Source of the DNA: Paracoccaceae bacterium
GTDB lineage: Bacteria; Pseudomonadota; Alphaproteobacteria; Rhodobacterales; Rhodobacteraceae
NCBI GenBank assembly: GCA_029246285.1
Contig: JAQWNW010000054.1
Location: 1 to 64,000 of the forward strand
Direction of reading: 5' to 3'
DNA: 64,000 nt
Shown: positions 35,075 to 49,148 of the stretch, piece after piece
How the letters are laid out: each line of letters opens with the position of its first letter
Position numbering within the stretch: position 1 is the stretch's first letter
Position numbers and translations under genes: made by a program
The notes under the pieces: generated by a model
What the model was told of the DNA's origin: nothing
The model's database searches: none
Seen by the model: the letters and a program-made list of their open reading frames with translations, nothing else

Positions 35075-35107
35075 TTGACTTTTTTGTTTAAACAAAACAG
35101 CTATAAT
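35075..35107 (+). promoter_or_regulatory. Promoter of the lig cluster with a perfect 14-bp palindrome
   Basis: A consensus -10 box TATAAT (35102-35107) is preceded by TTGACT (35075-35080). The 21-base spacing is long for a standard sigma-70 promoter, so the functional -35 may be a weaker T-rich element. Between them lies TTTGTTTAAACAAA (35083-35096), an exact palindrome, well placed for a repressor or activator controlling the aromatic genes. The ligA ATG follows 53 bases after the -10 box. No regulator gene lies in the cluster, so the factor would be encoded elsewhere. Confidence 0.6.
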
Positions 35108-35159
35108 GACTTTAAAAAGAACCAGCACACCGAATTAATTAAGTGAATAGGATATTTTT

Positions 35160-35552
35160 ATGGCTGAAAAAGATTACGATGACATTCCCGGAACCTTCGT
35201 GTTCGACGCTGAGCGTTCAAGAGAAGGTTATCATTTAAATCAATTTTGCATATCTTTGAGACTCCAAAGCAATCGGGATGTGTTCAATAGAGACGAAGAG
35301 GCTTACTTAAATTCTTACCCAATGACACCTGAACAACGTCAAGCAGTTCGAAGCCGAAATTGGAATTTGCTACTCGAGCTTGGAGGTAACATTTACTATA
35401 CTGCAAAATTAGCAGCAAATGATGGAATTAACTTTCAGAACCTCGCAGGAAAAATGACCGGTATGGGAGTAGAAGCCTATAGAGACATGATGCTGAGCGG
35501 TGGGAGACCGATTGAGGGAAATAGATCAAATGACGAATGGGAGAAAAATTAA
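35160..35552 (+). CDS. ligA: Protocatechuate 4,5-dioxygenase, alpha subunit
   Basis: 130 residues, matching LigA in size. [20 protein letters not shown] at the N-terminus and the helical [19 protein letters not shown] followed by [18 protein letters not shown] are LigA features. The small alpha subunit caps the active site of the extradiol dioxygenase. AGGA (35149-35152) lies 7 bases upstream of ATG. The stop overlaps the ligB start (TAATG). First gene of a 12-gene same-strand cluster. Confidence 0.93.
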
Positions 35553-36403
35553 TGGCTCGTATAACTGCCGGAGTAGGATGTTCACACGTACCAGCAATCG
35601 GAGTTGCCATGGATACTGGCAATACGAATGACGTCTACTGGAAGCCAGTATTTAATGGATTTGAAAAATCACGGGAATGGATGAAAAAGCAAAATCCTGA
35701 TGTAATTTTTTTAGTTTATAATGATCACTGCACGGCCTTTGATGCTTCATGCATTCCTACATTCTCACTCGGTTGTGCAGCAGAATTTAAGCCAGCAGAT
35801 GAGGGTTGGGGACCACGACCAGTACCAGTCGTCAAAAATCATCAAAAAATGGCTAGTCACATTGCTCAATCTCTAATTTTAGATGAATTTGATATCACGA
35901 TCATGAATGACATGGAGGTAGATCACGGCTTAACAGTCCCTCTATCTGTAATGTATGGTGATGTTAAACCAGAGGAAGAATGGCCAGCGCTCGTGATTCC
36001 ACTTTGTGTTAATGTGGTTCAATACCCACCTCCCACTGGAAACCGATGCTACAATTTAGGTAAAGCAGTACGTCGAGCCATTGAAAGTTACGAAGAAGAT
36101 TTAAACGTGGTAATCTTTGGCACCGGCGGCATGAGTCATCAACTACAATATAAACGTGCTGGCTTAATAAATTCTAAATGGGATAAGAATTTTTTAGATC
36201 TCATGACCAGAGATCCATTGGCTGCAAGTAAAATTTCTCACTTAGAATATTTACGTGAAACTGGTAGCGAAGGTATAGAAATGGTCATGTGGCATGTTAT
36301 GAGAGGAGCTCTTAACGACGAAGTGACTGAAGTACATCGACATTATCATGTTCCGGCCTCTAACACAGCAGTTGGTCACATCATACTTGAAAACAATACT
36401 TGA
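35552..36403 (+). CDS. ligB: Protocatechuate 4,5-dioxygenase, beta (catalytic) subunit
   Basis: 283 residues from ATG 35552, preceded by GGGAG at 35539-35543; an ATG 15 bases upstream inside ligA lacks a good signal. Type II extradiol dioxygenase. Iron ligands correspond to His12 ([11 protein letters not shown]), His59 ([10 protein letters not shown]) and a Glu in [13 protein letters not shown]; a catalytic His lies in [11 protein letters not shown]. It cleaves protocatechuate between C4 and C5 to 4-carboxy-2-hydroxymuconate-6-semialdehyde. Related enzymes act on gallate, so that substrate is also possible. The next gene encodes the matching dehydrogenase. Confidence 0.93.
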
Positions 36404-36413
36404 GGATAAATTT

Positions 36414-46846: not shown

Positions 46847-46859
46847 AAGGAAAATTTTT

Positions 46860-47735
46860 ATGGACCCAAATTGGCTACCCTTTCACCCAAACCCATCAAA
46901 ACCAAGAATAAAGTTACCTAAAGGTGCTGTTGATGCTCACTGTCATGTTTTTGGTCCAGCGAATAAATTTCCTTTCGCTCCAGAACGTAAATACACACCA
47001 TGCGATGCCTCTAAAGAACAACTTTTTGAACTACGCGACTTCCTCGGTTTTCAAAAAAATGTAATTGTTCAAGCTTCCTGCCACGGAACTAATAATGATG
47101 CTTTAGAAGATGCATTATTATCATCAAATGATTTAGCGAGAGGCGTTGCCGTCGTTTCTCAGGATATTAGAGATGCAGATCTAAATCGTTTGGATAAAGC
47201 AGGTGTACGGGCAGTTCGATTTAACTTTGTAAAAAGATTAGTTGATAATACGCCAAGAGATGCGTTTCAAAATATAGCTAAAAAAATTGCTGATTTGGGA
47301 TGGCACATCGTCGTTTATCTCGAGGCACAAGACTTAGAAGAATTAATACCTTTCCTAAAATCCTTACCAACTGATGTTGTGTTCGATCACATGGCCCGCC
47401 CTGATGCATCAAAAGGCCTAGACAGTGAAGAATTTAATCTATTTCAAAAATTAATGGAAAATAACAAATTTTGGTGCAAAACAAGTTGTCCTGAACGATT
47501 ATCGAACGCCGGACCGGAACAGAATTATTCAGATATTTTACCTTTCATGACATTACTTGTTAAAAACTACTCTGATCGGGTTTTATGGGGAACAGATTGG
47601 CCCCACCCTAATATGAAGTCACATATGCCTGATGATGGGCAACTCGTAAATATTCTGGATGCAATAGCACCGACAGATGAATTAAAAATAAAATTATTGG
47701 TCGATAATCCGACCCGATTGTATTGGAACGACTGA
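46860..47735 (+). CDS. ligI: 2-pyrone-4,6-dicarboxylate hydrolase
   Basis: 291 residues, amidohydrolase-family TIM barrel. GAVDAHCHVFGPANKFPFAP at the N-terminus is typical of LigI, followed by KNVIVQASCHGTNNDAL, VRFNFVKRLVD, DVVFDHMARPDASKG and the late VLWGTDWPHPNMKSHMPDD (catalytic Asp in WGTDWPHP). It opens the lactone of 2-pyrone-4,6-dicarboxylate to 4-oxalomesaconate without metal. It completes the route from LigC to GalD/GalB. AGGAAA lies shortly upstream of ATG. Confidence 0.93.
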   Translation: MDPNWLPFHPNPSKPRIKLPKGAVDAHCHVFGPANKFPFAPERKYTPCDASKEQLFELRDFLGFQKNVIVQASCHGTNNDALEDALLSSNDLARGVAVVSQDIRDADLNRLDKAGVRAVRFNFVKRLVDNTPRDAFQNIAKKIADLGWHIVVYLEAQDLEELIPFLKSLPTDVVFDHMARPDASKGLDSEEFNLFQKLMENNKFWCKTSCPERLSNAGPEQNYSDILPFMTLLVKNYSDRVLWGTDWPHPNMKSHMPDDGQLVNILDAIAPTDELKIKLLVDNPTRLYWND

Positions 47736-47801
47736 TTTTTTTTACAAAGGTAAATTAAGAATTTTACTGGATATTTAAATTATCTAAATTATGGTAATCG
47801 G

Positions 47802-49148
47802 ATGATAAACGACCTTATCCAATTTATTCATGAAACCACCATATCCGAAATGCCTAAAATTGTTCGGAGGCAAGCATCTTTATGTATCTTAGATTTAATA
47901 GGTGTTGGCATTGCAGGCTCGACAACAAATCTTTCTCAAATTATTCGAAACCATTCCTTAGAAAACTTCAATTCAGAAAAAAATAAGACCCAAATATTAT
48001 TTGATGGTCGATACTGCAGTCCAGCAGGATCCGCTTTGGCCGGGGGAATGACAATTGACGCAATGGATGCTCATGACGGCTTTAATGATGCAAAAGGCCA
48101 TATAGGGTGTGGTATTTTTCCGGCGGCCATCGCTTTTTCACAAGCAACCGGGTCAATAAATAGCCATTCTTTTCTGACTGATATTATAATAGGTTACGAG
48201 CTTGGAAGTCGACTTGCTACCGCCCTTCATGGAACAACAAAAGATTATCATACATCTGGCGCATGGATCGCAATAGCAGTCGCAGCTATCGGAGCAAGAA
48301 ACTTGGGCTTAAACAAGAAACAAACAATGCACGCGCTTGGAATAGCTGAGTATCATGGACCAAGAAGCCAAATGATGCGCTGCATTGATTATCCCACAAT
48401 GCTAAAAGATGGTTCAGGATTTGGGGCTATGGCTGGTGTTTCGGCCGCATACTTGGCGCAAAATAACTTTACTGGTGCGCCAGCAATAACTATTGATAGT
48501 GCTGAAGCGTCAAAATATTGGGAGACTCTAGGAAATCAGTGGTTAATAAATAAACAATACTTCAAACCATATCCAGTGTGTAGGTGGGCTCAGGCTCCGA
48601 TTGAAGCAGTTTTAACGTTGAAGCGAAAACACAATTTTTTAACTGCTGAAATAAACAAAATTGAGATAAGGACATTCCACGAGGCTGTGAGGTTAGCCGT
48701 AAACGAGCCGACCACCACAGAAGAAGCTCAATATTCGACTTCTTATCCATGCGCAGCAGCTCTAGTAAATGGAGATGTTGGAGTAAAAGAGGTATCTGAA
48801 ATATCATTTAATCAGCCAGAAATTAAGCGGATTTCAAAACTGCTAACAATGGTGGAAGACGATTATTGTAACAGTAAGTTTCCTAATCAGAGATACGCTA
48901 GCGCCACGATTGAATTAGCTAGTGGTAAAAAATTAAAAACAGCCTTTTTAAGCCCACGATGGACTGCTGAAGAGCCTCCAACAAGCACTGAACTAAAATC
49001 AAAATTCTTCAAGCTAACATATCCCGTTATTGGCAAGACAAGATCAGAGAACATTGAAGCGGCCGTACGAGATCTTAAAAACAATTCTAACTTAAATATT
49101 CTTACTTCACTTTTATATGAACCAACTACCAGTCGATCAGATAAGTAA
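47802..49148 (+). CDS. MmgE/PrpD family protein
   Basis: 448 residues, mostly helical MmgE/PrpD fold. Seen: VRRQASLCILDLIGVGIAGS, GMTIDAMDAHDGFNDAKGHIGCGIFPAA (family DAHD..), HTSGAWIAIAVAAIGARN, and FKPYPVCRWAQAPIEAVL. Members include 2-methylcitrate dehydratase, cis-aconitate decarboxylase and epimerases, so the reaction is open. It is 66 bases after ligI at the end of the cluster and could act on a tricarboxylic intermediate or a variant substrate. It ends 10 bases from the convergent ychF. Confidence 0.85.
   Translation: MINDLIQFIHETTISEMPKIVRRQASLCILDLIGVGIAGSTTNLSQIIRNHSLENFNSEKNKTQILFDGRYCSPAGSALAGGMTIDAMDAHDGFNDAKGHIGCGIFPAAIAFSQATGSINSHSFLTDIIIGYELGSRLATALHGTTKDYHTSGAWIAIAVAAIGARNLGLNKKQTMHALGIAEYHGPRSQMMRCIDYPTMLKDGSGFGAMAGVSAAYLAQNNFTGAPAITIDSAEASKYWETLGNQWLINKQYFKPYPVCRWAQAPIEAVLTLKRKHNFLTAEINKIEIRTFHEAVRLAVNEPTTTEEAQYSTSYPCAAALVNGDVGVKEVSEISFNQPEIKRISKLLTMVEDDYCNSKFPNQRYASATIELASGKKLKTAFLSPRWTAEEPPTSTELKSKFFKLTYPVIGKTRSENIEAAVRDLKNNSNLNILTSLLYEPTTSRSDK

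Follow-up and report, generated by a model that had tools for sequence, protein, structure and literature searches.

The window analysed here is the first 64,000 nucleotides of contig JAQWNW010000054.1 of a Paracoccaceae bacterium (assembly GCA_029246285.1, forward strand). Between positions 35160 and 47735, which we take as the bounds of the cluster, it carries eleven plus-strand genes (ligA, ligB, ligC, sulF, mblS, sdr, rdhA, galB, ligK, galD and ligI) that overlap or are separated by short gaps, the ends of ligC, sulF and mblS overlapping. We read these, with moderate confidence, as an operon for the catabolism of halogenated (bromo- or iodo-) hydroxybenzyl compounds in the form of their sulfate esters. 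A sequence-only reading had proposed that a formylglycine (FGly) sulfatase, a zinc alkylsulfatase, a short-chain dehydrogenase/reductase (SDR), a reductive dehalogenase and all enzymes of protocatechuate 4,5-cleavage lie together here, and profile and structure matches bear this out, with all of them present, in order and on the plus strand (Table 1). The enzyme types are each known, and it is their combination in one operon, not met in our searches, that appears to be new. The host genome is 2.27 Mb in size and 92% complete, and the closest named relative found is Rhodobacteraceae bacterium isolate SAT2 31250, a metagenome-assembled genome (MAG) whose sister locus, L031, shares genes 92–99% identical with it; we take the host to be marine because such nearest relatives are marine. 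Published work is cited by PMC number, from the parts of each paper available to us.

The dehalogenase is a fusion. RdhA residues 157–737 match NpRdhA of Nitratireductor pacificus (4ras, 503.9 bits) and residues 752–1058 match phthalate dioxygenase reductase (2pia, 165.8 bits), with Fer4 dicluster, Fer2 and TIGR02486 matches in the same protein. Because the two stretches are joined in one protein, RdhA is predicted to be of the self-sufficient type, fused to a phthalate-dioxygenase-reductase-like domain as in JtRdhA of Jhaorihella thermophila, a self-sufficient fusion of the same architecture (PMC10463259). The active-site residues of NpRdhA named in that paper, F291, S422, M423, Y426, K488 and R552, align with F339, S467, M468, Y471, K533 and R597, so that all six are present (alignment read by eye), and the N-terminus, also read by eye without a predictor, shows no twin-arginine leader. 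JtRdhA removes bromine and iodine from ortho-halogenated 4-hydroxybenzoates and related phenols, is inactive on the chlorinated and fluorinated ones tested, and has 3,5-dibromo-4-hydroxybenzoate as its best substrate (PMC10463259). The active substrates listed in Table 1 of that paper all bear an ortho bromine or iodine, in keeping with the preference for halogen ortho to the hydroxyl that the sequence-only reading had ascribed to such enzymes; one of them, 2,4,6-triiodophenol, is in addition iodinated at the para position, and the text available does not tell whether that iodine is removed. RdhA would be expected to carry out aerobic, NAD(P)H-dependent debromination. It may differ from JtRdhA and NpRdhA in its gene context, sharing an operon with the genes for two sulfatases, for an SDR and for every step of ring cleavage.

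Further members of the RdhA family are encoded in the host genome. One, on contig C13 (L008:9182-10327, minus strand), has 381 residues and no reductase fusion, and at 171.5 bits exceeds the TIGR02486 cut-off; another two, encoded on contigs C51 and C76, fall below it (106.1 and 100 bits); weak matches to this family are found in 11 of 14 control genomes. A frame break toward the 3′ end of the sister rdhA (L031:4874-8090) divides it into a 962-residue protein and a 117-residue piece, which could be an assembly error, and G002, the third genome representing the genus (76% complete), gave no full-length rdhA match. CobN scores over its cut-off in the host, and B12 synthesis is therefore likely.

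The closest solved relatives of SulF are SpAS1 (4UPI) and 4UPL, the latter of which we take to be SpAS2, both matched over nearly the whole length. The C-x-A/P-x-R...TGR FGly motif is present as CGASRMCFYTGR, and the genome encodes putative maturases, two proteins of the formylglycine-generating (FGE) type scoring over cut-off. One of these FGE-sulfatase proteins is encoded in the window at 16178-16996 on the minus strand, about 20 kb away from sulF, and the other on contig C26. Among 25 rows of a sulF tree, 24 have an FGly-type motif and none was found in L126; no viral copies of sulF were found. SulF would act on aryl sulfates. SpAS1 is an arylsulfatase (PMC5870055), and the difference from SulF is that neither SpAS1 nor 4UPL is tied to halogenated phenols in the literature used.

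MblS shares with the alkylsulfatases SdsA1, Pisa1 and YjcS the metallo-beta-lactamase (MBL) fold, the HxHxDH metal motif (here HSHRDH) and the alkyl-sulfatase dimerisation domain PF14863, and its structure matches (4pdx, 4nur, 7tl5, 4av7, 2cfu and 2yhe) score 131–150 bits, including 150.2 for YjcS (4pdx) and 132.6 for SdsA1 (2cfu). The N and R of the NxYxxR stretch, to which we assume a sulfate-binding role, are aligned as well. MblS differs from these enzymes in having 420 residues and no C-terminal domain, and in carrying an aspartate at the position of the bridging glutamate (alignment read by eye), presumably a metal ligand of SdsA1-type enzymes. Since no signal peptide was apparent by eye in SulF, MblS, the SDR or RdhA (no predictor was run), sulfate removal is probably cytoplasmic.

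Protocatechuate is converted to pyruvate and oxaloacetate by the LigAB-LigC-LigI-GalD-GalB-LigK route, and the cluster encodes LigAB, LigC, LigI, a tautomerase, a hydratase and an aldolase, a confident homologue for each step, the set being complete only with the PIG-L protein read as GalB. Every step is shared with the known lig/pmd/gal pathway, from which the host cluster differs by its interleaved desulfation and dehalogenation genes. We discarded two other assignments: the PIG-L protein as a deacetylase, GalB being its best solved match, and the ligI product (Amidohydro_2) as a 4-sulfomuconolactone hydrolase, which reaches 207 bits where the cut-off is 500 and is better matched by LigI structures. 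Judged from the onset of the family matches, ligB likely starts at about 35552 and ligC at about 36414, inside the listed open reading frames (ORFs). The only LigA match found in the host genome is that in the cluster, and protocatechuate 3,4-dioxygenase beta gave no match there, so the product would most likely enter protocatechuate cleavage. Conversely, HIMB11, a relative discussed below, has no LigA match and a 3,4-type protocatechuate dioxygenase over cut-off, which argues for one protocatechuate route per host.

Table 1. Positions in the window of the genes and other features discussed, with the matches on which each assignment rests.
Feature	Position	Strand	Evidence or remark
Operon leader	35075..35159	+	16-bp palindrome upstream of TATAAT; possible operator (weak evidence)
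ligA, protocatechuate 4,5-dioxygenase alpha	35160..35552	+	TIGR02792 155.6 bits, cut-off 108.6
ligB, protocatechuate 4,5-dioxygenase beta	35537..36403	+	NF009903 479.2 bits, cut-off 317; SYK-6-type 1b4u 399.9 bits
ligC/pmdC, 4-carboxy-2-hydroxymuconate-6-semialdehyde (CHMS) dehydrogenase	36348..37358	+	PmdC 9azo 434.8 bits
sulF, FGly sulfatase, dimeric arylsulfatase subgroup	37355..38995	+	4upl 750.6 bits; 4upi (SpAS1) 596.3 bits
mblS, SdsA1/YjcS-related MBL-fold sulfatase, 420 aa	38995..40257	+	PF00753, PF14863
sdr, alcohol dehydrogenase near coniferyl-alcohol / 3-alpha-hydroxysteroid dehydrogenase subfamily	40311..41087	+	NF009092, 2dkn
rdhA, self-sufficient catabolic reductive dehalogenase, 1072 aa	41099..44317	+	TIGR02486 190.8 bits, cut-off 160.35
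galB, 4-oxalomesaconate hydratase, PIG-L type	44378..45112	+	5cgz 286.8 bits
ligK, 4-carboxy-4-hydroxy-2-oxoadipate (CHA) aldolase / oxaloacetate decarboxylase	45112..45786	+	TIGR02798 351.7 bits, cut-off 304.5
galD, 4-oxalomesaconate tautomerase	45779..46846	+	NF033377 498 bits, cut-off 440
ligI, 2-pyrone-4,6-dicarboxylate (PDC) hydrolase	46860..47735	+	4d8l 333.5 bits
prpD (PrpD/MmgE family)	47802..49148	+	PF03972/PF19305; best PDB match IDS-epimerase 66.7 bits

Linkage, other gene arrangements and co-occurrence all point to the combination of genes being meaningful. We compared the best 80 of 321 rdhA loci, a selection that leans toward the copy of rdhA in the window. Within it, sulF is present in seven loci (L031, L035, L037, L050, L081, L093 and L099), the SDR gene lies directly upstream of rdhA in four, mblS is present in two, and ring-cleavage genes of at least 58% identity are found in five (L031, L038, L042, L045 and L060). 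The same genes were sought in 248 Rhodobacteraceae genomes, one per genus and including the host; 98 have rdhA, 120 have sulF and 73 have the two together (Fisher P = 2e-11, which like the other co-occurrence P values is given without a control gene and uncorrected for shared ancestry or habitat). Only the strongest sulF matches have positions, weaker copies having none, so that counts of proximity are lower bounds: at least five genomes besides the host have sulF within 12 kb of rdhA, with 0.72 expected (P about 9e-4), and at least two have it within 2 kb, with 0.19 expected (P = 0.016), expectations that assume random placement and rounded genome sizes. Copy numbers of sulF were taken from the genome table, and same-contig distances were read by eye. 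Close mblS matches (E <= 1e-90) occur in 16 of the genomes, host included, and all 16 have a fused rdhA, compared with 98 in the whole set of 248 (Fisher P = 1.6e-7); close SDR matches (E <= 1e-50) occur in 17, of which 15 have rdhA (P = 2.7e-5). In these co-occurring genomes mblS and the SDR gene are usually not adjacent to rdhA, and mblS adjoins sulF in at least seven of the 16 mblS genomes, again including the host.

The relatives also show the genes in other orders, although we note that their gene maps were drawn with a plain longest-ORF caller, and such a caller misplaces genes where G+C content is high. The order in HIMB11 is sulF-mblS-TRAP-TAXI-sdr-rdhA, together with an IclR regulator; in a Nitratireductor MAG (L037) it is sulF-sdr-rdhA-pobA, with PobA over cut-off; in L081 it is IclR-sulF-TRAP-TAXI-rdhA; and sulF immediately precedes rdhA in L050, L099 and L136. 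On an rdhA tree of 85 rows (FastTree) the 12 sulF-linked rows need 10 changes, and the eight with same-strand or direct linkage need seven, and thus sulF and rdhA became linked, or stayed so, on many occasions. The steps from desulfation through alcohol oxidation and dehalogenation to protocatechuate, as the sequence-only reading had laid them out, are supported by these arrangements, those of HIMB11 and the Nitratireductor MAG among them, and by the co-occurrence of mblS and the SDR gene with rdhA. That reading had also pointed to a missing transporter and a missing aldehyde dehydrogenase; the first gap is partly closed, since relatives encode a TRAP/TAXI importer next to the sulfatase, and the second stays. 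Away from rdhA, sulF lies beside a fused TRAP (DctM) gene and a TAXI binding-protein gene in L125, L124 and L132, with an IclR-like regulator in L124 and L125, and this set is likely a sulfate-ester import module.

Several observations weigh against a dedicated pathway. rdhA mostly lies without a sulfatase nearby: at least six of its 98 genomes, host included, have sulF within 12 kb, so that a wide spread of the dehalogenase without joint conservation of the sulfatases, the pattern named beforehand as one that would speak against the proposal, is half realised. Among the five other genomes with linkage, three (G173, G093 and G117) carry a sulF that is only 55–60% identical, and one of these copies is on the opposite strand. 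Relatives of sulF at 75–79% identity occur away from rdhA too, several without an adjacent mblS or sdr, and in the sulF tree the eight rdhA-linked rows form no clade and are mixed with unlinked ones (three changes, shuffled mean 5.3), on which grounds sulF may have a broader role. The lack of a control gene and of corrections behind the co-occurrence P values counts on the same side. The full cluster is seen in the host and its sister only, and the sister's ligA match is on a separate contig and its ligB outside the comparison. At the level of single proteins, the third, C-terminal domain expected of an SdsA1-type enzyme has no Pfam match in MblS, whose alignment ends at residue 499 of the 640-residue YjcS chain; we take this missing domain to be the SCP2-like one. 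The SDR scores 227.9 bits with NF009092 (coniferyl-alcohol dehydrogenase), below the cut-off of 242, and is for that reason named only as a relative of that family. No transporter gene lies in the 35160-47735 cluster, and the host's closest TAXI protein shares 41% identity with the one in HIMB11 and is encoded on another contig; nor is there an aldehyde dehydrogenase gene in the cluster, the rest of the genome not having been searched for one.

While the gene identities, key residues, linkage and co-occurrence are observed, the substrate, the order of the steps, the benzylic position of the second ester, import and cellular location are what we infer. The intact sulfate ester would be imported by a transporter encoded outside the cluster. 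In the cytoplasm SulF would cleave the phenolic sulfate and the SdsA1-like MblS a second, alkyl-type sulfate at the benzylic position; oxidation of the benzyl alcohol would be begun by the SDR and finished by an aldehyde dehydrogenase encoded elsewhere; and the fused RdhA would take off the halogen ortho to the phenol, aerobically and with NAD(P)H. Substrates of the 3,4-dihydroxybenzyl type would give protocatechuate directly, and others would give 4-hydroxybenzoate, to be converted to protocatechuate by a PobA-like protein encoded elsewhere in the genome. LigAB, LigC, LigI, GalD, GalB and LigK would then yield pyruvate and oxaloacetate.

Two narrower forms of this proposal differ in the substrate. 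The ortho preference of JtRdhA favours 3-bromo or 3,5-dibromo 4-hydroxybenzyl compounds, and an ortho-brominated 4-hydroxybenzyl alcohol or 4-hydroxybenzoate sulfate, from which RdhA would produce 4-hydroxybenzoate and PobA protocatechuate, is a serious candidate, albeit one to which we give somewhat less than an even chance. It agrees with the best JtRdhA substrate reported in PMC10463259, with the sulF-sdr-rdhA-pobA order of L037 and with the PobA-like protein of the host, which at 537.1 bits falls just under the cut-off of 538.7; however, the host pobA lies outside the cluster among neighbours that look unrelated, and pobA is found in only two of the best 80 rdhA loci (L037, and L093 at about 5.5 kb). 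The other form, sulfates of the brominated 3,4-dihydroxybenzyl alcohols of red algae, such as those of lanosol, would reach protocatechuate without PobA, and this we regard as doubtful. The red alga Vertebrata lanosa has lanosol-4,7-disulfate as a major metabolite (PMC9322897); this compound bears one sulfate of the aryl and one of the benzyl type, and its two kinds of ester would explain two distinct sulfatases; likewise the operon contains ring-cleavage genes and no pobA. Of the two bromines of lanosol, however, one is not ortho to any hydroxyl, whereas the listed active substrates of JtRdhA are all ortho-halogenated (PMC10463259), and pobA adjoins rdhA in the L037 module and has its counterpart elsewhere in the host genome. 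The proposal of lanosol as the substrate is thus the part of the sequence-only reading that is not well supported, and we consider it rather improbable that this is the first complete dedicated operon in the Rhodobacteraceae mineralising doubly sulfated brominated algal benzyl alcohols of the lanosol-4,7-disulfate type, by cytoplasmic removal of both sulfates, aerobic debromination with NAD(P)H that extends to the non-ortho bromine, and ring cleavage.

An alternative explanation for the cluster is that three functions, general scavenging of aryl sulfates, a broad dehalogenase and protocatechuate breakdown, share one transcript by chance. Relatives of sulF are common, as is rdhA, and the two are for the most part not linked, L038 and L042 have ligABC and gal genes beside rdhA without sulfatases, and the rdhA-linked sulF copies do not form a clade in their tree, all as this explanation would have it; but linkage recurs above chance, mblS is accompanied by rdhA in every one of its 16 genomes, and the ends of ligC, sulF and mblS overlap in the host, and we think it unlikely. 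It is also conceivable that the substrate of the sulfatases and the SDR is a steroid sulfate or the sulfate of some other alcohol, with no relation to the dehalogenase, as the nearest PDB relatives of the SDR are 3-alpha-hydroxysteroid dehydrogenases (2dkn, 91.8 bits) and a Rieske oxygenase and a P450 are encoded near one sulF-mblS-sdr set (L128). The presence of sdr and mblS nevertheless follows that of rdhA, both genes sit between ligC and rdhA in the host, and the annotated genes of the HIMB11 module include neither a Rieske oxygenase nor a P450, which makes this very unlikely.

A marine debrominase with which the system can be compared is Ros_A3X954 of Roseobacter sp. MED193, which converts 2,6-dibromophenol to 2-bromophenol and differs in being reported as highly oxygen sensitive (PMC13101508). 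We met no precedent for an operon that unites dual desulfation with self-sufficient dehalogenation and ring cleavage in the open-access literature searched, an absence that is weak evidence because the search was limited to that literature. Beside rdhA in many Ruegeria loci (e.g. L047:13323-16956) we observed a xanthine-dehydrogenase-family set 3′ of the gene, the large subunit of which has 4-hydroxybenzoyl-CoA reductase alpha as its best match, with every match below cut-off; this set could be a partner of rdhA or a neighbour by descent. The contig of L033 is labelled Flavobacteriales and carries rdhA and gene families nearly identical to those of the Rhodobacteraceae MAG L034, and the label is probably a binning error.

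The two ends of the cluster were also considered. Just 5′ of TATAAT in the leader is a perfect 16-bp palindrome, TTTTGTTTAAACAAAA (35082-35097), and at up to two mismatches the window contains two such sites, one of them exact, compared with 0.21 expected by chance. The sister genome keeps most of the leader, yet its palindrome has two changes, and the 14-bp core is exact in only one of 152 loci, the host's own, so that we did not adopt it as a shared operator. Scans for promoters and terminators were of no use, with 42 promoter-like sites compared with 40.4 +/- 7.2 in shuffles, and eight terminator-like sites compared with 12.3 +/- 4.1. At the downstream end, the region marked by the sequence-only reading runs to 49148 and takes in prpD. 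No prpD match was found in the near-identical sister locus, where the ORF 3′ of ligI is on the minus strand and has 365 residues, in length and place as ychF, and a T-run follows ligI in the window. We therefore dropped prpD as a pathway gene; it has no assigned step and probably lies outside the pathway.

Part of the brominated phenols of some red algae is stored as sulfate esters, and how marine bacteria degrade these is, to our knowledge, poorly known. In the cluster and its rearranged relatives, sulfatases, a transporter and a self-sufficient dehalogenase come together as a single route open to testing, for which HIMB11, with its sulfatase-transporter-SDR-dehalogenase module, is a named test strain. 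As close copies of mblS are found only in genomes with a fused rdhA in the 248-genome sample, mblS is a possible marker gene. For the fused dehalogenases, a family widespread enough to be present in 98 of those genomes, the route offers a hypothesis as to what their natural substrates may be.

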